64,000 nt of DNA from Pseudogemmatithrix spongiicola (lineage in GTDB: Bacteria > Gemmatimonadota > Gemmatimonadetes > Gemmatimonadales > Gemmatimonadaceae), in assembly GCF_030623445.1 (NCBI RefSeq), contig NZ_CP130613.1:1-64000 (forward strand), written 5' to 3'. Within the stretch, counting starts at the first letter, position 1, and each line of letters opens with the position of its first letter. Made by a program: the position numbers and the translations under genes. Shown here one piece after another: positions 1-51,078 of this stretch. The notes beneath the pieces were generated by a model, which was not told the origin of the DNA, ran no database searches, and saw only the letters and a program-made list of their open reading frames with translations.

Positions 1-1398
1 ATGTCGCTTTCGGCCACCGACGCTTGGTCGCGCCTGTTGGATCGCGCTCGTACCGAGCTGTCGGATCACATAGTTGAGACCTGGCTGGTCCCTCTCCAAG
101 CCGCCGAGTACTCGGGCGAGGAGCTCGTGCTCAACGCCCCTGACCAATTCTCGGTCGAGTGGAACGAGCGCCGGCATTCGGCACTCCTCGAATCCTACGC
201 CCCGGTCGCGCTGGGCCATCCGGTCAAGATTGCCCTGCGGGTGCAGCAGGAGCGCCTGCAACGCAGCCAGATGGACCTGTTCGTGCCACAAAAGGGACAG
301 GAACAGGCCACACTAGAGCCAGAAAAGCAGCCGAACAACGTTACGCTGTCGTCCCTGAACGACCGCTATACGTTCGATACCTTCGTCATCGGCAAGTCCA
401 ACGACCTCGCCGCCGCTGCCGCGATGGCCGTCTCGCAGGCCCCGGGCAAGACCTACAACCCGCTCTTCTTCTACGGGCCCACCGGACTCGGCAAGACGCA
501 CCTCATGCAGGCCATCGCGCAAGAGATCGTGCGCAAGAACCCGCAGACCCGCGTCACCTACATCACCACCGAGCAGTTCACCAACGACGTCATCACGTCC
601 ATCGGCAAGGGCGCCATGCACGATTTCCGTCGCCGCTATCGCGAGACGGATCTCTTTCTCGTCGACGACGTGCATTTCATCGGCGGCAAGAACTCCACGC
701 AGGAAGAGTTCTTCCACACGTTCAACGCCCTCTATGAAGCGGGGCGCCAGATCGTGTTGACGTCGGACCGCCCGCCCTCCGAGATCTCCAAGCTCGAGGC
801 GCGCCTCGCATCACGCTTCGCCTGGGGCATGGTCGCCGACATCGGGCAGCCCGACCTCGAGCACCGCATCGCCATTCTCCGCCGCAAGGCGCAGATGGAT
901 CACCTCGAGCACACGATTCCCGACGACGTGCTGCATTTCATCGCCGATCACGTCCAGTCGAACGTCCGTGAGCTCGAGGGCTCCATCATCAAGCTCTTGG
1001 CGTACGCGTCGCTCAAGCACCGCGTCGTCACCGTCGACCTGGCCCGCGAGGCCCTGCGCGACAAGATCCGCACCAGCGAGGGCGCGCCCATGCGCTCCGA
1101 GCGCCAAGACCGCATGGGCGTCATCCAGCAGCGGGTCGCCACGGAATGGGGCGTCACGGTCGAGGGGCTCCAGTCCAAGACGCGCACCAAGACCCTCACG
1201 ATCCCGCGGCAGGTCGCCATGTACCTCGCACGCGAGATCCTCGGCCTGCAGCTCGTCGAGATCGGGCAGGCCTTCGGCGGCCGCGACCACTCGACGGTCA
1301 TCCATTCCCTGGAACGCGTGGCGGAGACGATGAAGGAAAGCGCCGAGTTCCGCGGGCGTGTGGAACGCGTGCGGGAAACCGTCCGGCATTCCTCATAG
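1..1398 (+). CDS. dnaA: Chromosomal replication initiator protein DnaA
   Basis: AAA+ ATPase that binds DnaA boxes and melts the origin; cytoplasmic. The 465-residue protein has the usual length and order: an N-terminal domain I (about 1-80), a linker, and an AAA+ core with Walker A GPTGLGKTHLM near residue 159 and Walker B DLFLVDDVHF near 219. It ends with the domain IV DNA-binding helix, whose signature GGRDHSTVIHS lies near residue 430. The ATG is the first base of the window, so any upstream boxes or promoter cannot be seen. It is followed by a 228-base spacer with origin features and then dnaN, the classical dnaA-oriC-dnaN arrangement. Nothing is unusual in the protein. Confidence 0.98.
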   Translation: MSLSATDAWSRLLDRARTELSDHIVETWLVPLQAAEYSGEELVLNAPDQFSVEWNERRHSALLESYAPVALGHPVKIALRVQQERLQRSQMDLFVPQKGQEQATLEPEKQPNNVTLSSLNDRYTFDTFVIGKSNDLAAAAAMAVSQAPGKTYNPLFFYGPTGLGKTHLMQAIAQEIVRKNPQTRVTYITTEQFTNDVITSIGKGAMHDFRRRYRETDLFLVDDVHFIGGKNSTQEEFFHTFNALYEAGRQIVLTSDRPPSEISKLEARLASRFAWGMVADIGQPDLEHRIAILRRKAQMDHLEHTIPDDVLHFIADHVQSNVRELEGSIIKLLAYASLKHRVVTVDLAREALRDKIRTSEGAPMRSERQDRMGVIQQRVATEWGVTVEGLQSKTRTKTLTIPRQVAMYLAREILGLQLVEIGQAFGGRDHSTVIHSLERVAETMKESAEFRGRVERVRETVRHSS

Positions 1399-3612: not shown

Positions 3613-3679
3613 GGCCGAAGCATACATCGCGACGCACGACGGGGGCGAGCGCTGGTGCGCCCGCCCCCGCCGCGGCACT

Positions 3680-4063
3680 CGAAGGTTCCGTCTGTAAGCC
3701 GGGTTCTGTCGATGCGTTGCCGCACCGGACGATCATTCCTCTCGGCGCCCGCTCGCGCGTGCGCTCTAGCGGCCAACCCGCGGCGTCTTGTTCGCAGAGG
3801 ACTGCTGCTCGCCGCCTATTTGACCTTGCTCCCGCTGGGGTTTGCCGTGCCGCCGACGTTACCGCCGACGCGGTGGGCTCTTACCCCACCCTTTCACCCT
3901 TACCTCCGGTTTCCCGAAGGCGGTTTGCTTTCTGTTGCACTGTCCGTCACGCAGTGCGCTCGCGCGCGTGCGTGCCCAGGCGTTACCTGGCAGCGTGTCC
4001 AAGGAGCCCGGACTTTCCTCGGCGCAGCCGAAGCCACGACGCGATCGTCCGACGGAACCTCTC
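3680..4063 (-). ncRNA. rnpB: RNase P RNA, bacterial class A
   Basis: Catalytic RNA that matures tRNA 5' ends. On the minus strand the conserved 5' block GAGGAAAGTCCGGGCTCC reads from about 4020 to 4003. The conserved 3' block ACAGAACCCGGCTTAC reads from about 3709 to 3694. The two ends pair in helix P1: AGGTTCCGTC (4060-4051) with GACGGAACCT (3691-3682), a perfect 10-bp stem that fixes both termini to within a few bases. A TAGATT hexamer at 4073-4068 is correctly spaced to be the -10 box; no convincing -35 was seen. The length of about 384 is normal for class A. Confidence 0.95.
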
Positions 4064-39139: not shown

Positions 39140-39739
39140 TCAGCGCGCGCGCTGCGTGAAGACATCGCGGACACCGTCGAGCGAACCGCCGACCGCACGG
39201 AGCGCCACGAGGGCGTGATAGATCAGGTCCGCGGCCTCTTCCGTGGCCCGCGCGACGTCGTTGTCCGCACAGGCGGTCACCAACTCACTGGCTTCTTCGC
39301 CGATCTTCTTCAGGCGGAGATTGCGATCTGCCAGCAGCTTCTGCGTGTAGCCCTTGCCGGCAGCCGCGGGTTCCGCGGCGCGCGCCGCGATCGTGGCGTC
39401 GAGCGCCGCGAGCGCGTCGCCGCGCGCCGTCTCGCCGAAACAGGTGCGCGTGCCGGTGTGGCACGCGGGTCCGGTGGGCTCGACGCGCGCAAGCACCGCA
39501 TCGCCGTCGCAGTCGGCGACCAACTCACGCACGTGCAGCACGTTGCCGCTCGTCGCGCCCTTGTGCCACGGTCCGCGCGTCCGGCTGAAGAGATGCAGTT
39601 CGCCGCTCGCGAGTGTGCGTTCCAGCGCCTCGCGGTCGGCCCACGCGACCATGAGCACGGCGCCGGAGCGCAGGTCCTGGGCAATCACGTTCACCAAGCC
39701 GTTGCCCTTCGTGAAGTCGAGGCGATCCAGGTCAATCAT
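39140..39739 (-). CDS. hisIE: Bifunctional phosphoribosyl-AMP cyclohydrolase/phosphoribosyl-ATP pyrophosphatase
   Basis: A 199-residue fusion for steps 2 and 3 of histidine synthesis. The N-terminal HisI half has the HKGATSGNVLHV motif and zinc/metal Cys and Asp residues (DCDGDAVLARV, then CHTG and TCFGE). The C-terminal HisE half has KKIGEEASELV. ATG 39739 starts the normal HisI sequence [16 protein letters not shown]. It is the last gene of the his operon and overlaps hisN by 8 bases. Confidence 0.97.
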   Translation of the reverse strand: MIDLDRLDFTKGNGLVNVIAQDLRSGAVLMVAWADREALERTLASGELHLFSRTRGPWHKGATSGNVLHVRELVADCDGDAVLARVEPTGPACHTGTRTCFGETARGDALAALDATIAARAAEPAAAGKGYTQKLLADRNLRLKKIGEEASELVTACADNDVARATEEAADLIYHALVALRAVGGSLDGVRDVFTQRAR

Positions 39740-40493
39740 CGAAATAGTCCCGCACGGTGGCCGCGAGGGCCTTGTTGGTGGCAATGGCGGAACCCGCAAA
39801 GGCGCTCGGCGTGCCATCGAGGGCGGTGAACACGCCGCCAGCTTCTTCAATGATTGGCTGGAAGCACGCGGCGTCCCAGGGATTCACGATGGGATCGACC
39901 ATCGCCTCGGCGCGGCCGGTGGCCACCAGCAGGTACCCGTAACAGTCACCCCATGTGCGGGCGATGGCCGCCTCACCGATGAGCGTCCGCCACCCATCGA
40001 GCAGGGCGGTGCTGCGGAACGTACGCTCGTCCGTGATGAGTACGGTCGCGCCGGCGAGCGTCGCGCAATCGCTGACCCCGGTCCGCTGACCGTTCCACCA
40101 GCAGCCTTCTCCCGGCGCGGCCGCGATGGTCTCGTCCACGGCCGGAAAGCACGCCGCACCGGCCAACACGCGGTCGCCCTCCACCACCGCGACCAGCGAT
40201 CCCCAGAGCGGCACGCCGCGCACGAAGCTCTTGGTGCCATCGATCGGATCGATGATCCAGCGGCGGCCCGACGTTCCCTCGTGCTCGCCAAGCTCCTCGC
40301 CGAGGACGCCATCGTCCGGAAAGCGCTCGGCAATCCACGCGCGTGCGGCGGCTTCCGCTTCGCGGTCGGCAACCGTGACTGGCGATCCGTCGGCCTTCGT
40401 CTCGACCGTGAGCACGGACCGATAGTGTCCGAGCGCGACGGCACCGATGTGGCGCGCGAGCGCCTCGGCGGCCTGCAGCAAGTCGCGGCTCAT
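39732..40493 (-). CDS. hisN: Histidinol-phosphatase, inositol-monophosphatase type
   Basis: A 253-residue Mg2+ phosphatase with the IMPase signatures [12 protein letters not shown] and [17 protein letters not shown]. Its place inside the his operon and the absence of a HisB N-terminal phosphatase domain indicate it removes phosphate from histidinol phosphate (the HisN type known from Actinobacteria). It overlaps hisF by 4 bases. Confidence 0.9.
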
Positions 40494-41257
40494 GCGGCCA
40501 CCTCGCGCACCGGAAGCGCCGCCGCGCGCATCGCATCCTTGAGCGCCGCGACGGTCGTCGTGCCGTCGTGCAGGATACCGGCCACGAGCGCGGCGTCTGC
40601 GCCGCCAGCGACGATCGCCTCACGCACATGCGCCGCCGTGCCCGCACCTCCCGACGCGATGACCGGCACCGAGACGGCGTCGGCGACCGCGCGCGTCAAC
40701 GCGAGATCGTAGCCATCCCGCGCGCCGTCGCGGTCGATGCTCGTGAGCAGGATCTCCCCCGCCCCACGTCGCGCGCACTCCGCCGCCCACTCCACGGCGT
40801 CGAGGCCGGTCGGGCGACGCCCACCCGCGACGTACACGCGCCATCCGTCGCCTTCCCGCTTGGCGTCGATGCTGGCGACGATGCACTGCGCGCCGAAGCG
40901 CTCCGCGCCTTCCGTGATGAGTTCCGGGCGCCGTACGGCCGCGCTGTTCACGCCGACCTTGTCGGCGCCCGCGCGCAATGCGGCCGACATCGCGTCGACC
41001 GAATCGATGCCGCCGCCGATCGTCAGCGGGATGAACAGGCGTTCGGCCGTCCGCCGCGCGAGCTCCAGCGTGGTGCCGCGGGCTTCGTGCGTGGCGGTGA
41101 TGTCGAGGAAGACGATCTCGTCCGCGCCTTCCGCTTCGTAGCGCGTGGCCAGTTCGACCGGGTCACCAACGTCGCGCAACCCGACGAACTGCGTGCCCTT
41201 CACCACGCGCCCGCGGTCCACGTCGAGACACACGATCAACCGTCGCGTCAGCGTCAC
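40490..41257 (-). CDS. hisF: Imidazole glycerol phosphate synthase, cyclase subunit
   Basis: A 255-residue TIM barrel that uses ammonia from HisH to form imidazole glycerol phosphate and AICAR. The catalytic Asp pair lies in [15 protein letters not shown] and [10 protein letters not shown], with the phosphate-binding loops TIGGGID and ASGGAGT. Its length is typical, and it overlaps hisB by 4 bases. Confidence 0.97.
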
Positions 41258-41796
41258 TCGACCTCCAGCGCGATGGCGCCCTTGGTCGAGAACACCGCGC
41301 CGGAGTCCTTGGCGGCATCGCGCAGCGCGAAACCCAGCGCCTTGAACGCCGCCTCGACGATGTGATGCCGGTCCTCGCCGCGCAGCACGCGCAGGTGGAG
41401 CGTGAAGCGCGCCGCGTCGCAGAACGAGCGCATCCAGTGGTCGTACAGCGAGCTGGGGATCGGACCTTCATAGTACGGCCGCCCGCCCACATCGAGCACG
41501 GCGTGGACCAGCGCCTCGTCCATCGGCACGGTGCGATCGCCGTAGCGCGCCGCCGTCGCGGGCAAGGCTTTCGCGATGGCCGGGCCGACGGTGAGTGCGA
41601 CGTCCTCGATCAAATGGTGCCGCAGGTCGCCGCGCGCGTGGATGGTGAGGTCGATGCCGCTGTACTTCGCCAGCGCCGTCAGCATGTGATCGAGAAAGGG
41701 AATCGACGTATCCACCGTCGCCTTCCCCTCCCCGAGCCGCGCTTCGACGCGGATCTGCGTTTCCTTGGTGCTGCGTTCCACGACCACGGGCTTCAT
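41254..41796 (-). CDS. hisB: Imidazoleglycerol-phosphate dehydratase
   Basis: A 180-residue monofunctional enzyme with the manganese-ligand His motifs RHHLIEDV and [13 protein letters not shown]. No HAD phosphatase domain is fused, consistent with the separate hisN in the operon. ATG 41796 begins [19 protein letters not shown]; upstream sequence in this frame is antisense-like noise. It overlaps hisA by 4 bases. Confidence 0.97.
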
Positions 41797-42506
41797 TCGG
41801 CGAACTCCTCGGCGACGATGCGCGCATCGAGCGCATCGGTGTACAGCGCCATGCCCAGCACGGCCGCGGCCACCCCGCGGTCTTCCAGGCTGCGCAGGTC
41901 CAGCAGCGTGCCCACGCCGCCGGAAGCGATCACCGGCCACGGCGATGCGTCCACGACGTCGGCCATCAAGGCGAGATCCGTGCCCTGCATCTTCCCTTCC
42001 TTCTGCACGGCGGTCACGAGCAGACCCGCGAGCGGCAGCGCCTCCAGCTCCCGCACGAGCTCGACGATTTCGCGCGTCGACTCCTTGGCCCATCCCCGCG
42101 TGACGACCGTGCGGCCCTTCACGTCCGCGGCGAGCACAAGCCGACCCGGTGCGCGGTCGGCCTGCTCGGCCAACCACTCCGGATCCTCGACGCCGCGCGT
42201 CCCGACGACGATGCGGTCCGCGCCTTCGTCGAGGAGTGCATCGATGGCCTCCGCGTCGCGCACGCCCCCGCCGACCTGCACCGGCACGCCCGAGCGCGTG
42301 ATGAGCTCCCGCAGCAACTCGCGGTTGTCGCCGCGGCCTGTCGCCGCGTCGAGGTCCACCAGGTGCAGGCGCGAGAACCCCGCGGCCACCCAGCGCTGCG
42401 CAACGCGCAGCGGGTCGTCGAGGCGCACGGCCTCTTTCGCATAATCTCCGCCGACCAACTGCACGCAGTGGCCGTCGCGAAGGTCGATGGCAGGAATGGC
42501 TAGCAT
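41793..42506 (-). CDS. hisA: ProFAR isomerase
   Basis: A 237-residue TIM-barrel isomerase for step 4, starting MLAIPAIDLRDGHCVQLVGG with the catalytic Asp in the first strand. VQVGGGVRD and IASGGVGT form the phosphate sites. Its ATG shares one base with the hisH stop (TAATG). Confidence 0.97.
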   Translation of the reverse strand: MLAIPAIDLRDGHCVQLVGGDYAKEAVRLDDPLRVAQRWVAAGFSRLHLVDLDAATGRGDNRELLRELITRSGVPVQVGGGVRDAEAIDALLDEGADRIVVGTRGVEDPEWLAEQADRAPGRLVLAADVKGRTVVTRGWAKESTREIVELVRELEALPLAGLLVTAVQKEGKMQGTDLALMADVVDASPWPVIASGGVGTLLDLRSLEDRGVAAAVLGMALYTDALDARIVAEEFAE

Positions 42507-43129
42507 TACACAGAACGGAGGGTGGGAACCGCGCGCCGCGCGTCGTCGAGGAACGCCTCGATGAACCGCCGGCCGGGAGTGCTGCTCTTCTCGGGATGGA
42601 ACTGGACGCCGACGCAGCGCCCATGACGAACGGCTGCGGGGAAGCGATCGCGACCGTGCGTCGACCACGCGATGACGACCGACGGATCGCTCGGCCGGCA
42701 CGCGAAGCTATTGGCATAGTATGCGACATCGAGCCCGCTGGCGGAGAACATCCCGTCGCGGCGGTCGTCGAGGGCATTCCAGCCGATCTGCGGCAGCCGG
42801 TCGGCGTCAATCCGCGTGACGCGTCCCGCGAAGATCCCCAACCCAGCGCCGGGACCTTCATCGCTCCCGTCGAACATCAACTGCATGCCGAGGCAGATGC
42901 CCAGCGTGGGCAGGCCGGCGAGGATGGCCGCACGCATCGCATCCCTGCCACCGGCAAGCCGCTCGGCGGCAGGCGCGAAGGCTCCAACGCCCGGCAGGAT
43001 GAGCACGTCGGCGCCCTCCGCCGCTGCGCCGGGGTCGGTGCTCACCTGCAGGCTGCGCTCCGGACCGTCCAGCGCCTTCAGCAAGGAATGCAGGTTGCCC
43101 GCGCCGTAATCGAAGACGTGGATGCGCAT
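42506..43129 (-). CDS. hisH: Imidazole glycerol phosphate synthase, glutamine amidotransferase subunit
   Basis: A 207-residue class I amidotransferase supplying ammonia to HisF. The Cys nucleophile lies in GICLGMQLMFDGSDE and the His-Glu pair in GVQFHPEKSS; DYGAGNLHSLLKAL is the typical start. The ATG at 43129 is the last base of the hisC stop (1-base overlap). Confidence 0.97.
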   Translation of the reverse strand: MRIHVFDYGAGNLHSLLKALDGPERSLQVSTDPGAAAEGADVLILPGVGAFAPAAERLAGGRDAMRAAILAGLPTLGICLGMQLMFDGSDEGPGAGLGIFAGRVTRIDADRLPQIGWNALDDRRDGMFSASGLDVAYYANSFACRPSDPSVVIAWSTHGRDRFPAAVRHGRCVGVQFHPEKSSTPGRRFIEAFLDDARRAVPTLRSV

Positions 43130-44178
43130 CACGCGAAGACCTCGTCGAGCGCCGCAATCACGCGGTCGGTCTCCGCCGTCGGCGCGGCGCCGATGCGCAG
43201 CGCATCCCCGATGCCGGGGAGTCCGGAGAACGCGCGGACGCCGATGCCCCGCGAGCGGAAGCGATCGGCCACGTCCTTCGCTGGTCGGTCGAGCGCCGCG
43301 AAGACGAAGTTGCCCTCCGAGGCCCACACCGTCACCCCCGGAAGGCGACGCATCGCCGCCGCGAGGCGATCGCGCTCGATGCATGTCTGGCGTGCGACCT
43401 CGCGCACCCATTCGCCGTCCTGCGTCAGTGCCGCGGCCGCCGCGAGCTCCGCGGCCGCATTCACTTTGTACGGACCGCGCGCCTTCGTCACCGCCGCCAC
43501 GAGGGCCGCGCTGCCCACGCCATAGCCGACGCGGAGGCCTGCGAGTCCCCAAGCCTTCGAGAACGTGCGCGTCACGAGCACGTTTTCGCGCTGCGCGGCC
43601 TCGCGGCGCAGGTCATGCGCATCAGTGAACTCCCCGTAGGCTTCATCGAGCAGCACGATCCCCGGGGCCTCGTCGAACAGCCGCACGAGCTCGCCGCGCG
43701 GCGTCACCGTCCCGGTCGGATTGTTCGGCGAGCAGGCATAGATGATCGCCGCGCGCGTCGCCAGCAGCGCGTCCACGTCCATCGCTCCATCGCGGCGCAG
43801 CGGCACGGCGATCGGCGTCACGCGGTTCAGCCGCGCGAACGTCGGGATCATCGAGAACGTCGGATCGGCATGCGCAAGCGTTGCGCCGTCGGTGGCGACC
43901 GCACGGATGCATGCGTCCAGCACGTCGTCGCTGCCGCAGCCTGCGACCACCTGATCCGCGGCGATGCCGAGCGGCGCGGCCACCGCCTGCGTCAACGCAC
44001 CCGCGCTGACCCGCGGATACTCGCGGAGCAGCTCGGTCGTCGCCGCCTGCACGGCGCGCAGCGCCGAGGGCGGCGTGCCCCAGAGGTTCACGTTGTCCCG
44101 CAGGTCGAGTGACACGTCATCGAGCGGGGACGGCGCGTAGAGCGGAATGCCGCCGAGGTCAGGGCGCAGCGGCATCAT
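43129..44178 (-). CDS. hisC: Histidinol-phosphate aminotransferase
   Basis: A 349-residue PLP enzyme of aminotransferase class I/II, with the PLP lysine in RTFSKAWGLAGLRVGYG and the substrate motif SPNNPTGTV. ATG 44178 overlaps the hisD stop by 4 bases; a second ATG follows at once (44175). Confidence 0.96.
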   Translation of the reverse strand: MMPLRPDLGGIPLYAPSPLDDVSLDLRDNVNLWGTPPSALRAVQAATTELLREYPRVSAGALTQAVAAPLGIAADQVVAGCGSDDVLDACIRAVATDGATLAHADPTFSMIPTFARLNRVTPIAVPLRRDGAMDVDALLATRAAIIYACSPNNPTGTVTPRGELVRLFDEAPGIVLLDEAYGEFTDAHDLRREAAQRENVLVTRTFSKAWGLAGLRVGYGVGSAALVAAVTKARGPYKVNAAAELAAAAALTQDGEWVREVARQTCIERDRLAAAMRRLPGVTVWASEGNFVFAALDRPAKDVADRFRSRGIGVRAFSGLPGIGDALRIGAAPTAETDRVIAALDEVFA

Positions 44179-45482
44179 GCCCCACCCCACTGCCGCGCAG
44201 CCGCGGCGTGCGCCGGCAGGCCTTCGGCGCGCGCGAACGTGTCGACGTCGTCGGCCAATCGGCGCGCCGCCTCGCGATCGATGCGCTGCCACGTGGTCCA
44301 GCGGACGAAGTCCAGCGTCGAGAGGCCGGACCAGATGCGCGCCAACCCCCCAGTCGGTAACACGTGATTCGCGCCGCTCATGTAGTCGCCGAACGCCACG
44401 CTCGCCGTCTCACCGATGAAGACCGTGCCGGCGCCGCGCAGCTCGGCCAGCACCCTGCCCTCCACGGCCGGCGCGACCGCCAGCAGCAGGTGCTCGGCAG
44501 CCCACGCGTTGGCGAACTCCACGGCATCGACGAGCGACTCCACCGTGAGGATCCCACCCCGCGCCGCGAACGCTGCGCGAATCACGTCCGCGCGCGGCTC
44601 GGCATCGACGCGCGATTCAAGCTCGCGCCGGACCTCGGTGGCCAGCGCGTCGCTATCCGTGACCAAGACCACGGCGGCGACGGGATCGTGCTCCGCCTGC
44701 GCGAGCATCTCGCGCGCCACGACGGCGGGTGTCGCACTCGCGTCGGCGAGCACCAGCAGCTCACTCGGGCCCGCCGGTGAGTCGATGCCGACGCGGCCGG
44801 ACACCTGCAACTTCGCTTCGGCGACGTAGGCGTTTCCGGGGCCGACGATGCGATCCACGGCGGGAATGCTCGCCGTGCCGTAGGCCATCGCCGCAACGGC
44901 ACCGGCGCCGCCCACGGCGAACACGCGATCGACGCCGGCGATCGCCGCCGCCGCGAGCAGGACGGCACTCGGCGCGCCCCTCGCGTCGGGAGGCGAACAC
45001 ACGATCACTTCGCGCACGCCGGCGACGCGCGCAGGCACGGCCCCCATGAGCAGCGAGCTCGGGTACGTCGCGCGCCCCCCCGGTGCGTAGACGCCAACGC
45101 GCGCGAGTGGGTCGGGACGACGCCCGATGATCGCGCCGTCTGGCGTCGCCACTTCCCGCGGCTCGGGGCGGAAAGCCTCGTGCACGCGCCGGATGTTGGC
45201 TGCGGCGCGCTCGAGCGCACGACGCAACGTCGCATCCAGGGATGTGAGCGCGGCCTCCCACGCGTCACGCGGTACCTCAAGGCGGTCCAGCGTCGCGCCG
45301 TCAAACTCGCGCGCGTACGCCAGCAGCGCCGCGTCGCCCTCGGCACGCACGCGCGCGAGAACGGTGCGCGTGCGCTCACGGACGGCGTCGTCGGTCGTGG
45401 TATTGCGGTCGAAGAGGGCGCGCCGCGCCGTCGCGTCGAGCGAGGTGAGCGGACCCACGGCCGCGAAGCGAAGCGCGCTCAC
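44175..45482 (-). CDS. hisD: Histidinol dehydrogenase
   Basis: A 435-residue NAD enzyme for the last two oxidations. The zinc ligands lie in MLAQAEHDPVAAVVLVTD and MSGANHVLPTGGLAR, and the general-base region is WAAEHLLLAV. GTG 45482 overlaps the hisG stop by 4 bases and gives a normal length. Confidence 0.97.
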   Translation of the reverse strand: MSALRFAAVGPLTSLDATARRALFDRNTTTDDAVRERTRTVLARVRAEGDAALLAYAREFDGATLDRLEVPRDAWEAALTSLDATLRRALERAAANIRRVHEAFRPEPREVATPDGAIIGRRPDPLARVGVYAPGGRATYPSSLLMGAVPARVAGVREVIVCSPPDARGAPSAVLLAAAAIAGVDRVFAVGGAGAVAAMAYGTASIPAVDRIVGPGNAYVAEAKLQVSGRVGIDSPAGPSELLVLADASATPAVVAREMLAQAEHDPVAAVVLVTDSDALATEVRRELESRVDAEPRADVIRAAFAARGGILTVESLVDAVEFANAWAAEHLLLAVAPAVEGRVLAELRGAGTVFIGETASVAFGDYMSGANHVLPTGGLARIWSGLSTLDFVRWTTWQRIDREAARRLADDVDTFARAEGLPAHAAAARQWGGA

Positions 45483-46351
45483 GCCAGCAACCTCTCGATG
45501 CGTGTGACGAGAATGCCCTCGGCGCCGATCGCCTTGAGGGCGTTGATGGTGCGGTAGATGCCCGACGCCGGGCACACCGCGTGCACGGCGACCTTGCTCC
45601 CGCCGTTCATCACGTCGATCACCGTCGGGCCGGAGATGCCCGGGAGGATCTGCTTGACTTCGTCGAGCCTGGTGCGCGGGACGTTGGCCATCAGGTAGCG
45701 CTGGCCACGCGCCGCCAACACCGACCCCAGGGCATCCACGAGTTCGCGCAACGTGCGATCGCGTTCGCCGACCGGGGCGCGGCCACTCGCAGGACCGGCG
45801 ACCACGAGGTGCGCGGTGGACTCGAGTACGTTGCCGATCTCCCGCAGCCCGTTCACCCGCAGCGTCGAACCGGTCGAGGTAAGGTCGACGATCACGTCGG
45901 CGATGCCGAGGTGCGGCGCGATCTCGACGGCGCCGGAGACTGGCACCAACTCGACGCGCTTGCCGGCTGCGGCGAAGAAGCGCTGGGTGAGTTGCGGGAA
46001 AACGGTCGCGATGCGCGTGCCGTCGGGAATCTCGGCGATGCTGCGCACGCTGCCGTCATCCTTGGCGGCGACCACGAGGCGGCAGCGGCCGAACCCGAGG
46101 TCGAGTCGCGATTCGAGCGGCCGGCCGGACTCGCTGACGAGGTCCCAGCCGGTGATGCCGGCATCGGCCGCGCCGTCCGCGACGAACTCCGGGATGTCCT
46201 GGGCGCGCACGAAGATCGCCTCGAATTCGCCCCCGAGGGATGCGACGAGTGCGCGCTCCGAGGAGGCGCGGACCTCAAGTCCGGCGTCAGCGAGCAAGGA
46301 TCGGGCGTCGTCGTGCAGACGGCCCTTGTTGGGAATGGCGAGGCGGAGCAT
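45479..46351 (-). CDS. hisG: ATP phosphoribosyltransferase, long (self-regulated) form
   Basis: A 290-residue enzyme for the first committed step. The length and C-terminal ACT-like tail (VHAVCPASGIYRTINALKAI) mark the HisG-long form, which binds histidine for feedback inhibition and needs no HisZ; none is present. ATG 46351 (MLRLAIPNKGRLHDD) is the true start. The in-frame extension upstream is the attenuator region, whose terminator ends 26 bases before this ATG. Confidence 0.97.
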   Translation of the reverse strand: MLRLAIPNKGRLHDDARSLLADAGLEVRASSERALVASLGGEFEAIFVRAQDIPEFVADGAADAGITGWDLVSESGRPLESRLDLGFGRCRLVVAAKDDGSVRSIAEIPDGTRIATVFPQLTQRFFAAAGKRVELVPVSGAVEIAPHLGIADVIVDLTSTGSTLRVNGLREIGNVLESTAHLVVAGPASGRAPVGERDRTLRELVDALGSVLAARGQRYLMANVPRTRLDEVKQILPGISGPTVIDVMNGGSKVAVHAVCPASGIYRTINALKAIGAEGILVTRIERLLA

Positions 46352-46375
46352 GGAAGCGGGGAGCGGAGGAAAGGC

Positions 46376-46415
46376 GAAAAAACAAAACGACCCGTCCGGC
46401 AGTTCCGGACGGGTC
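46376..46415 (-). terminator. his operon attenuator (intrinsic terminator)
   Basis: On the minus strand GACCCGTCCGG (46415-46405) pairs perfectly with CCGGACGGGTC (46399-46389) around the loop AACTG, followed by GTTTTGTTTTTT. It ends just before hisG. Its 5' arm is also the 3' arm of the alternative antiterminator, so formation depends on leader translation. Confidence 0.92.
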
Positions 46416-46487
46416 GAGGGTGTCTGGGCCAGCGTGCGAGCGGCGGTCAGCAGCTCCGGGACACGCGCGATGCCCACCCCCGACCCG
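46410..46487 (-). promoter_or_regulatory. his operon antiterminator pairing
   Basis: On the minus strand CGGGTCGGGGGTG (46487-46475, codons 16-20 of the leader) can pair with CACCCTCGACCCG (46422-46410): 12 Watson-Crick pairs and one G-U. The downstream segment overlaps six bases of the terminator's 5' arm, so the two structures exclude each other. A ribosome stalled on the His codons leaves the upstream segment free, whereas one reaching the leader stop covers it. Confidence 0.8.
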
Positions 46488-46533
46488 CCGGGCCGTGGTG
46501 GAGATGCGCGTGATGGTGCTGGATGAACGCCAT
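46447..46533 (-). CDS. hisL: his leader peptide
   Basis: A 28-codon leader starting MAFIQHHHAHLHH, with six His codons among the eight codons 6-13, then GPAGRGWASRVSRSC and TGA. TAGGG lies 7 bases upstream of the ATG as a ribosome-binding site. It precedes hisG by 95 bases, and the intervening RNA holds a mutually exclusive antiterminator and terminator. The peptide itself has no function; its translation senses charged tRNA-His. Confidence 0.92.
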   Translation of the reverse strand: MAFIQHHHAHLHHGPAGRGWASRVSRSC

Positions 46534-46641
46534 GCCGAACCCTAGTTGGCCCCCCCAGCCCCGGTCAACCCATTGTCCAACTTATCTGGAAACGGAACTG
46601 CGAAGCCATTGCGCGAGTTACAGTTGGCACAGCGCATGGGA

Positions 46642-46659
46642 TTGTGATATTTTTCACAA
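46642..46659. promoter_or_regulatory. CRP/FNR-type operator
   Basis: TTGTGATATTTTTCACAA contains TGTGA-N6-TCACA, the exact consensus of CRP-class regulators, with arms extended by one T/A pair. It lies 67 bases upstream of the cupredoxin ATG and about 108 upstream of the divergent his leader ATG. The position suits control of the cupredoxin gene. No CRP-family gene is in the window. Confidence 0.65.
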
Positions 46660-46726
46660 CCTCGGGGAAATCCCCGAAGCTGCAAACCATCACATTTTTT
46701 TCTGTTCGGCCTGGAGGCCATTCGAA

Positions 46727-47224
46727 ATGCAGTTCAAGGGTCTGGCGCTCGTCGCGAGCGCGATCATGTTCGCCGCCTGCGGCGGCGGTTCCGAGTCGCA
46801 GCCGGCTGCCGAGACGTCGCCGGCCGCCGCACCTGCTGCCGAGGCCGCTCCGGCCGCCGGCGCGGTGACTGCTGCGCCCGCCACGGGCACGACGCACGAG
46901 ATCAAGATGGTTGGCGACGACAAGGGTTATCGCTTCGAGCCGGCCAACATCACGATCAAGCAGGGCGATGCCATCAAGTTCGTCGCGGTGTCTGGCTTCC
47001 CGCACAACGTCGCGTTCGTCGGTACGGGCCTGGCCGACGCGGTCAAGGCGCAGCTGAACGCCAACCTCGGCCCGGCGCGCCTCGCCGACCTCTCGTCGCA
47101 GATGTACCTCGCGGCGAACGAGGGCTTCACGATGTCGTTCGCGAACATCCCGGCCGGCACGTACGAGTACAACTGCACGCCGCACCTCGCGATGAACATG
47201 AAGGGCGTGATCACGGTGCAGTAA
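46727..47224 (+). CDS. Plastocyanin/azurin-like blue copper lipoprotein
   Basis: A 165-residue lipoprotein (QFKGLALVASAIMFAAC then Gly-Gly-Gly) with an Ala/Pro-rich tether (about 22-50) and a cupredoxin domain. The type 1 copper ligands are visible: His in FPHNVAF and Cys-x2-His-x3-Met in YNCTPHLAMNMKG. It probably carries electrons in the periplasm. ATG 46727 has GGAGG 9 bases upstream. Its 5' region contains the CRP-type palindrome and a TCGGGG-AAAT-CCCCGA hairpin (46662-46677). Confidence 0.93.
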   Translation: MQFKGLALVASAIMFAACGGGSESQPAAETSPAAAPAAEAAPAAGAVTAAPATGTTHEIKMVGDDKGYRFEPANITIKQGDAIKFVAVSGFPHNVAFVGTGLADAVKAQLNANLGPARLADLSSQMYLAANEGFTMSFANIPAGTYEYNCTPHLAMNMKGVITVQ

Positions 47225-50043: not shown

Positions 50044-51078
50044 TGTTGTTGGTGAGGAGGTTGTTCACAGGAGCGTAGCGGATGCAAGCTGGGGTTGCTG
50101 AGACGCTCAACCGGCACCCCGCCAGAGGCTCCTGTGAACATCCACAAGAATGCACGTCTGACCGTCGCGGGGCGACTCGCCGTCGCGACCGCCGTTCTGG
50201 GCGGGCAGGATCCCGCCGCCGTCGCCCGGGGCGCGGCCTGTTCCGTCCGCACCGTCTGGAAGTGGGTCGCCCGCTTCCGCACCGGCGGCGCGGCGGCGCT
50301 CGCGGACCGCTCGTCGCGCCCGCATCGCCTCACCCAGCTCCCGCGGCCGCAGCGCCGCGCGATCCTTCGGGGCCGCACCCGGCGGCGCTGGAGCTCGACG
50401 CGCATCGCCCAGGAGACGGGCATCCCGCTCTCAACGGTGATCCACTTCCTGCGCCGCCACGGCCTGCAGCGGCTCCCTCGGCTCGAGCCGCCGCGCGCGG
50501 TGCGCCGCTACGAGATGCGGGCACCGGGCGAGCTGCTGCACGTCGACACGAAGAAGCTCGGGCGCATCGGCCGCGTGGGGCACCGCATCCACGGCGACCG
50601 CCGGACCCGCGTGCGCGGGATCGGCTGGGAGGCGGTGCACGTCGCGGTGGACGCCTACTCGCGCGTGGCCTACGCCGAGGTCCTGCCCGATGAGCGCGCG
50701 GCGACCACGGCGGCCTTCCTCGCACGGGCGATCGCGTGGTACGCGGCGCTCGGCGTGCGGGTGCGCGCCGTGCTCACCGACAACGGGAGCTGCTATCGCA
50801 GCCACGCGGTGCGCACGCTCCTCCGCTGCGACGGCATCACGCACAAGCGCACCATGCCCTACACGCCGCGCACGAACGGCAAGGTCGAGCGGCTGATCCA
50901 GACGCTCCTGCGGGAATGGGCGTACGCGCGCCCCTACCCCTCCTCGCGGGTGCGCACGGAGTGGCTCGCGCGCTACCTGCGGACGTACAATGAGGCGCGC
51001 GGACACTCAGCCCTCAACTACCTCCCCCCCATGCTGCATCTCGCTGCGGCCCTGTGAACAACGTCCTCACTAACAACA
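50044..51078 (+). mobile_element. Intact IS481-family insertion sequence
   Basis: A 1035-bp element bounded by 28-bp inverted repeats with two mismatches. The left begins TGTTGTTGGTGAGGA and the inverted right end TGTTGTTAGTGAGGA; both end GTTGTTCACAGG. It is flanked by the 6-bp direct repeat GCTAGC and encodes one full-length DDE transposase. Both ends, the open reading frame and the duplication are intact, so the insertion is recent and the element is probably still mobile. Confidence 0.95.
50134..51057 (+). CDS. IS481-family transposase
   Basis: A 307-residue transposase with an N-terminal helix-turn-helix (LTVAGRLAVATAVLGGQDPA, then CSVRTVWKWVARF) and an integrase core. The DDE residues are in LLHVDTKKLGRI, VLTDNGSCYRS and NGKVERLIQTLLREW. 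GTG 50134 (VNIHKNARLTVAGR) matches the canonical IS481 start and has AGAGG upstream; an upstream TTG is less likely. Confidence 0.96.
   Translation: MNIHKNARLTVAGRLAVATAVLGGQDPAAVARGAACSVRTVWKWVARFRTGGAAALADRSSRPHRLTQLPRPQRRAILRGRTRRRWSSTRIAQETGIPLSTVIHFLRRHGLQRLPRLEPPRAVRRYEMRAPGELLHVDTKKLGRIGRVGHRIHGDRRTRVRGIGWEAVHVAVDAYSRVAYAEVLPDERAATTAAFLARAIAWYAALGVRVRAVLTDNGSCYRSHAVRTLLRCDGITHKRTMPYTPRTNGKVERLIQTLLREWAYARPYPSSRVRTEWLARYLRTYNEARGHSALNYLPPMLHLAAAL

Follow-up and report, generated by a model that had tools for sequence, protein, structure and literature searches.

Introduction

In enteric bacteria, the hisL attenuator combines a His-rich leader peptide, a protecting hairpin and mutually exclusive antiterminator and terminator folds ahead of hisG, and its leader ORF carries a Shine-Dalgarno site. 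The locus described here shares this arrangement, but differs from enteric hisL in belonging to a different phylum, in having a longer post-His part of the leader that harbours two of the pairing segments (1 and 2), and in being predicted to be leaderless. Outside the enteric bacteria, His leader-peptide attenuators have been reported in Firmicutes, namely the B. cereus group, Peptostreptococcaceae and Erysipelotrichales (PMC9413887, 2022), and at hisS/hisZ in bacilli (PMC2965389); at the time of the latter report (2010), leader-peptide systems had, to its authors' knowledge, not been shown beyond Proteobacteria and Actinobacteria. These systems likewise place a His-rich leader, a terminator and an antiterminator outside the Proteobacteria, but they are scattered and lineage-specific, whereas here one alignable RNA occurs in much of a phylum. 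In Actinobacteria, histidine operons were reported to lack a conserved RNA structure in their upstream regions (PMC1262725).

Leaderless leader peptides are known from trpL of Sinorhizobium meliloti (PMC7298713), from trpL, leuL and ilvL of Streptomyces lividans (PMC8079986) and, as cited in PMC13236596, from cysteine-responsive short ORFs of mycobacteria (Canestrari 2020). In each of these cases a leader ORF at the 5' end of the transcript controls the downstream operon, as is proposed here; however, the precedents concern Trp, Leu, Ile/Val and Cys, while the present leaders concern His, Tyr/Phe, Leu and Thr in another phylum and are leaderless by prediction. No description of a leaderless His leader peptide was found in the literature search, and Gemmatimonadota are mentioned neither in PMC9413887 nor in PMC2965389. 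A full-text search covering mostly non-subscription literature returned no report of such an attenuator in Gemmatimonadota, though a large attenuation survey may contain an earlier one.

Judged by comparison of relatives and by folding models, the leader of the his operon analysed here is very likely a ribosome-mediated transcription attenuator. It shares its mechanism class with enteric his attenuation and lies outside the Rfam family RF00514 (His_leader): no Rfam match to that family was obtained in the window (the whole 64,000-nucleotide stretch of DNA that was analysed), in 401 bases searched at E values up to 10, or in three relatives, and a relaxed Rfam threshold yielded chance matches only.

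The his operon and its leader ORF

The source genome is a single 3.26-Mb contig. A complete his operon lies on the minus strand, beginning with hisG (45482-46351), which encodes a 290-aa ATP phosphoribosyltransferase with a HisG C-terminal domain (TIGR00070, 8.1e-63; TIGR03455, 2.2e-26). It is followed by hisD, histidinol dehydrogenase (44175-45482, start approximate; TIGR00069, 5.9e-144), a hisC-like histidinol-phosphate aminotransferase (43129-44292, ORF as listed; TIGR01141, 1.9e-74, slightly below the curated cut-off) and hisH (42506-43123, start approximate, inside the ORF 42506-43552; TIGR01855, 2.8e-46). Further downstream are hisA (41793-42701, ORF as listed, true start probably internal; TIGR00007, 1.4e-65), the hisB dehydratase (41254-41799, start approximate, the C-terminal part of the ORF 41254-42861; NF002111, 1.8e-49), hisF (40490-41257; TIGR00735, 1.2e-103) and a hisN-like histidinol-phosphatase (39732-40493; TIGR02067, 7.6e-80). 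Elsewhere in the window, an IS481-type transposase ORF occupies 50095-51057 on the plus strand (PF13011, PF00665, PF13683), and the class A RNase P RNA at 3679-4060 on the minus strand is the only Rfam match.

Upstream of hisG, a hisL-type leader ORF of 28 codons, MAFIQHHHAHLHHGPAGRGWASRVSRSC*, spans 46447-46533 on the minus strand, from an ATG at 46533 to a TGA at 46449-46447. Direct reading of this strand confirmed what the first-pass annotation had claimed, namely six His codons in eight; these regulatory codons occupy 46495-46518, within leader codons 6-13 (QHHHAHLHH). The leader of a his operon is thus rich in codons of the operon's own amino acid. Another 15 codons follow the last His, and segments 1 and 2 of the RNA structure described below lie in the leader codons for Gly-Pro-(Thr/Ala)-Gly-Arg-Gly.

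The distribution of this arrangement was followed with a HisG search over 395 genomes of the phylum, which gave matches in 272; 127 hisG upstream regions were analysed, a His-rich leader being defined as a short ORF with at least four His in ten codons. Such an ORF was present in 121 of the 127 regions, which bears out the expectation that the His codons would be conserved in relatives. The leader peptides (for example MTTLRHHHALHHHGPTGRGTAAHAEHRA, MNSRRHHHVHHHGPSGRG... and MNTRIHVRHHHHHAAHTGCGKVVRA) have a variable N-terminus, followed by the His block and a GPTGRG-like motif. This peptide motif is RNA structure: it is conserved because its codons, spelling CGGCCCG-ACGGGYCGSGG, form the paired segments.

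Promoter and predicted leaderless start

In the source genome, a putative his promoter is arranged as TTGACC, 18 nt, TAGGGT, 5 nt and the leader ATG (46568-46533), with the -35 hexamer at 46563-46568 and the -10 hexamer at 46539-46544, both on the minus strand. The first-pass annotation did not include this promoter abutting the leader ATG. A generic sigma-70 scan of the source region missed it as well, since the -10 element is only TAnnnT, and it was recognised only through comparison of relatives. The pattern TTGACn-16..19-TAnnnT, at most 16 nt from the leader start codon, occurs at 90 of 121 leaders (72 of 87 in the same family) and in 0 of 1210 shuffles. In 85 of these 90 promoter-matched leaders the gap between the -10 element and the start codon is 5-10 nt, and in 74 of them the ATG is preceded by C or T. 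Shine-Dalgarno-like motifs were seen at 6 of 121 leaders. From the promoter position and the near absence of such motifs, the first transcribed base is expected to be the A of the ATG or to lie a few nucleotides ahead of it, and the His leader peptide is probably leaderless.

The attenuator could instead be transcribed from a start farther upstream, leaving the TTGAC/TAnnnT elements unused and giving the leader a longer 5' UTR. This possibility draws on the start having been predicted from sequence, on the roughly one quarter of relatives without an exact promoter match and on a TGTGA-N6-TCACA operator-like palindrome farther upstream. Nevertheless, it is considered unlikely: TTGAC is equally placed, at 16-19 nt spacing, in the 72 same-family leaders and in none of the shuffles, the -10 hexamer sits where a Shine-Dalgarno sequence would be, and several sister leaders for Tyr/Phe, Leu and Thr share the layout.

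The palindrome in the source genome is CRP/FNR-like (TGTGAAAAATATCACA, 46643-46658); it is flanked on one side by the his promoter and on the other by a divergently oriented plastocyanin-like gene (PF00127), which starts at about 46727 on the plus strand. Among relatives, TGTGA-N6-TCACA is found upstream of the His leader in 42 of 121, as against 1 of 2540 shuffles.

Terminator, antiterminator and protecting hairpin

Between the leader ORF and hisG, an intrinsic terminator is formed by segments 3 and 4 (3:4) on the minus strand, as CGACCCGTCCGG-AACTG-CCGGACGGGTCG. The 12-bp hairpin with its AACTG loop occupies 46388-46416 and is followed by the T tract TTTTGTTTTTT at 46377-46387; within 46000-47000, a terminator-like site was found only at 46416-46377. 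The T tract had been expected to end shortly before hisG, and the terminator does lie 25 nt from the gene. The earlier count of 11 bp has to be revised to the 12 bp given by the fold, the hairpin and the T tract themselves being present as described.

The antiterminator pairs segment 2 (CGGGTCGGGGGTG, 46475-46487, minus strand), which consists of the Gly-Arg-Gly codons, with segment 3 (CACCCTCGACCCG, 46410-46422, minus strand), which overlaps the 5' arm of the terminator. The helix, 46487-46475 with 46422-46410, contains 13 bp including one G-U, the length first noted; the overlap, formerly given as six bases, is seven on the full 12-bp arm, of which six fall in the 11-bp arm counted earlier.

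Segment 2 can alternatively pair with segment 1, forming a protecting hairpin (1:2) that is an addition to the first-pass annotation. The upper part of segment 1 is CGGCCC (46490-46495, minus strand), in the His-Gly-Pro codons. The hairpin is predicted to arise from the region of the regulatory codons when no ribosome is stalled there, and 97.5% of its cells are paired in an RNAalifold analysis of 52 relatives. Per-sequence pairing extends it by a lower stem on the same strand, CACGCGC at 46512-46506 with GCGCGTG at 46468-46462. The segments resemble one another, segment 1 (CGGCCC) being like segment 3 (CGGCCCGTC) and segment 2 (GACGGGYCG) like segment 4 (GACGGGCCG), an economical design. A fold z-score of -3.35 speaks against chance.

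Conservation and covariation in the phylum

A terminator was found in 120 of the 127 upstream regions, and leader and terminator together in 118, compared with 1 of 381 dinucleotide shuffles; a chance origin is therefore rejected. When a 52-sequence alignment was given to RNAalifold, hairpin 1:2 (CCAC-GGCCC with GGGYCGGGG in the alignment) and the terminator were chosen unprompted. Taken jointly, these two helices have 98.7% of their cells paired, and six pairs are changed on both sides across the 52 sequences, corresponding to 24 both-side-changed cells against 4.6 in shuffles (0 of 500). Most of this covariation belongs to the terminator, in which 4 of 9 aligned pairs are changed on both sides, as compared to 2 of 7 in hairpin 1:2.

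For the antiterminator, 86.5% of cells are paired, and sliding the helix lowers this share to 34-57%. Covariation in this helix is weak, 25 of 500 column shuffles reaching its score, and exchanging partners among species is uninformative (own 26.1, swapped 24.3), because segments 2 and 3 are nearly invariant. Hence, compensatory changes in both the terminator and the antiterminator stem, as the first-pass annotation had proposed to look for, are clear in the terminator and weak in the antiterminator, and they appear also in hairpin 1:2. The lower part of that hairpin is plausible, since its pairing of the His-Ala-His codons with a GCGCGTG-like tail scores modestly above swapped or shuffled tails (own 17.5, swapped 16.4, shuffled 14.5, within the family).

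Searching 84,980 species for a DNA pattern built from segments 2 to 4 gave 25 places. The matching records carry Gemmatimonadetes, Gemmatimonadota, Gemmatimonadaceae or Gemmatimonas titles, except one 'bacterium' and one 'Candidatus Kuenenia', the latter probably a mislabelled bin. In the source genome, the covariance model R1 rises above noise only at the his leader. One genus (g75; L127, L128, L130) has hisG regions with neither a His leader nor a terminator, an apparent loss of the attenuator. In another genome (G132, L161), the His leader and terminator are kept, and the hisG reading looks frameshifted or truncated and enters a hisN-like frame, through decay or an assembly error.

Folding with and without a ribosome

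Since equilibrium folding of the whole leader fails to separate stalled from unstalled states in relatives, the effect of a ribosome was assessed on transcripts ending at the 5' arm of the terminator, before segment 4, with a pairing probability of at least 0.5 taken as pairing. When a ribosome was placed at the first His codon, the terminator 5' arm paired with leader sequence beyond the His codons in 115 of 117 relatives, as compared to 64 of 351 cases with a shuffled spacer. In ribosome-free folds, segment 2 paired with the preceding His/Gly-Pro codons in 97 of 117. For the source genome, the antiterminator is the minimum-energy fold of the whole leader with the ribosome at codons 6-10, and the terminator forms with the ribosome at codons 12-13 or at the stop. 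In silico, then, antiterminator and terminator are mutually exclusive, and a ribosome positioned at the regulatory codons releases the antiterminator, although the antiterminator helix covaries weakly. In the finished leader at equilibrium, the terminator wins in 100 of 117 relatives despite a ribosome on the first His codon; therefore, read-through must depend on folding during transcription, that is, on kinetics.

Stalling, read-through, the transcription start site and the response to histidine are put forward as predictions. The transcript would begin at the leader ATG or a few nucleotides from it, and translation of the leader peptide would set in at a leaderless 5' end. Under a shortage of charged His-tRNA, the ribosome would stall on the His codons and cover segment 1, so that segment 2 could pair with segment 3 while segment 4 has yet to be transcribed; with segment 3 captured, no terminator would form and RNA polymerase would enter hisG. 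When histidine is plentiful, the ribosome would reach the stop codon, hairpin 1:2 would re-form or segment 2 would be swept clear, and 3:4 would end transcription ahead of hisG. An untranslated leader would form 1:2 and be terminated too. The enteric logic attributed to this locus from its sequence is supported by conservation, by covariation in 1:2 and 3:4 and by the folding in silico.

The leader might also act through translational control of hisG, a trans-acting factor or T-box-like tRNA binding, with no stalling in cis. T-boxes or HisR do serve other his operons (PMC9413887), and Shine-Dalgarno-like motifs precede the hisG start in only 19 of 127 genomes. Such control is nevertheless very improbable here: the final hairpin and T tract end at least 25 nt before the hisG start and leave it uncovered, what is conserved is a start codon followed in frame by His codons, and Rfam gives no T-box match; a T-box at the his leader was rejected. 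It is scarcely credible that the terminator is constitutive or ends an upstream transcript, with the His-rich ORF arising by chance from a stretch rich in CAC/CAT. GC-rich hairpins are common, and the divergent orientation of the upstream plastocyanin-like gene makes a stray terminator conceivable; but this terminator is preceded by a conserved promoter and followed by hisG, all on one strand, and the 118 regions, from many genera, preserve His codons, spacing, segment 2 and terminator as a set. A plain terminator was rejected as well.

Sister attenuators and a second hisG lineage

Besides the his leader, the covariance model R1 matched other operons in the phylum. Thr-rich leaders (MTNAAIRTTGTTTTTTTRLTGRGRECLRR*) with terminators precede aspartokinase in two genomes (L165, L168) and show, by eye, the TTGACA/TAnnnT layout of the his leader. 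Tyr/Phe-rich leaders with terminators, such as MTRAQSYAYYYYYTTHTTGRSWRTR, stand upstream of DAHP synthase at 10 of 30 same-family loci (L184-L186, L188, L189, L192-L194, L196, L209), and Leu-rich leaders with terminators, such as MHRANLLLLSSALGLLGRGLLCMGGKERTE, upstream of leuA at 3 of 8 loci (L217, L219, L220). A promoter match was obtained for 7 of these 13 aro and leu leaders, in 6 cases at 6-7 nt from the start codon. Upstream of trpE, no Trp leader was found in 28 same-family loci. In one genome (G093, L166), a further copy of the His leader precedes hisC, in addition to the one at hisG. Aspartokinase and hisC were identified by reading of translations, DAHP synthase and leuA by family searches.

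A divergent hisG lineage within the phylum carries His leaders at 13 of 21 readable loci (L162, L164, L170, L291-L320), with a terminator of different sequence (GCCGGCC..GGCCGGC); several f7 genomes of this lineage keep the terminator without a leader of at least four His. On balance, these observations favour a phylum-wide toolkit for amino-acid sensing, in which leaderless attenuators with one shared layout, the promoter adjoining the ATG, respond to His (hisG), Tyr/Phe (DAHP synthase), Leu (leuA) and Thr (aspartokinase), together with two unlike His RNAs on two hisG lineages, the logic having either persisted or arisen anew upon replacement of the operon.

In family searches of the source genome, ilvB was not found and leuA only as a remote match; many same-family genomes show the same picture, hinting at auxotrophy for branched-chain amino acids.

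Implications

Three things are new and were absent from the first-pass annotation: an RNA shared across the phylum, a leader predicted to be leaderless, and sister attenuators for Tyr/Phe, Leu and Thr. For annotation, the covariance model R1 constitutes a new RNA family for RNA libraries and annotation pipelines. An over-long hisG call running through the terminator, of which the first-pass annotation had warned, is possible in the source genome, where the reading frame of hisG (ATG at 46351) has no stop codon as far back as a GTG at 46477; hisG starts here may thus be annotated too far upstream. As regards regulation, classical His attenuation is extended to much of a phylum for which no such report was found. 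Under leaderless coupling, the ribosome must load at the extreme 5' end of the nascent transcript, and transcription-translation coupling thereby becomes testable in a group with little genetics.
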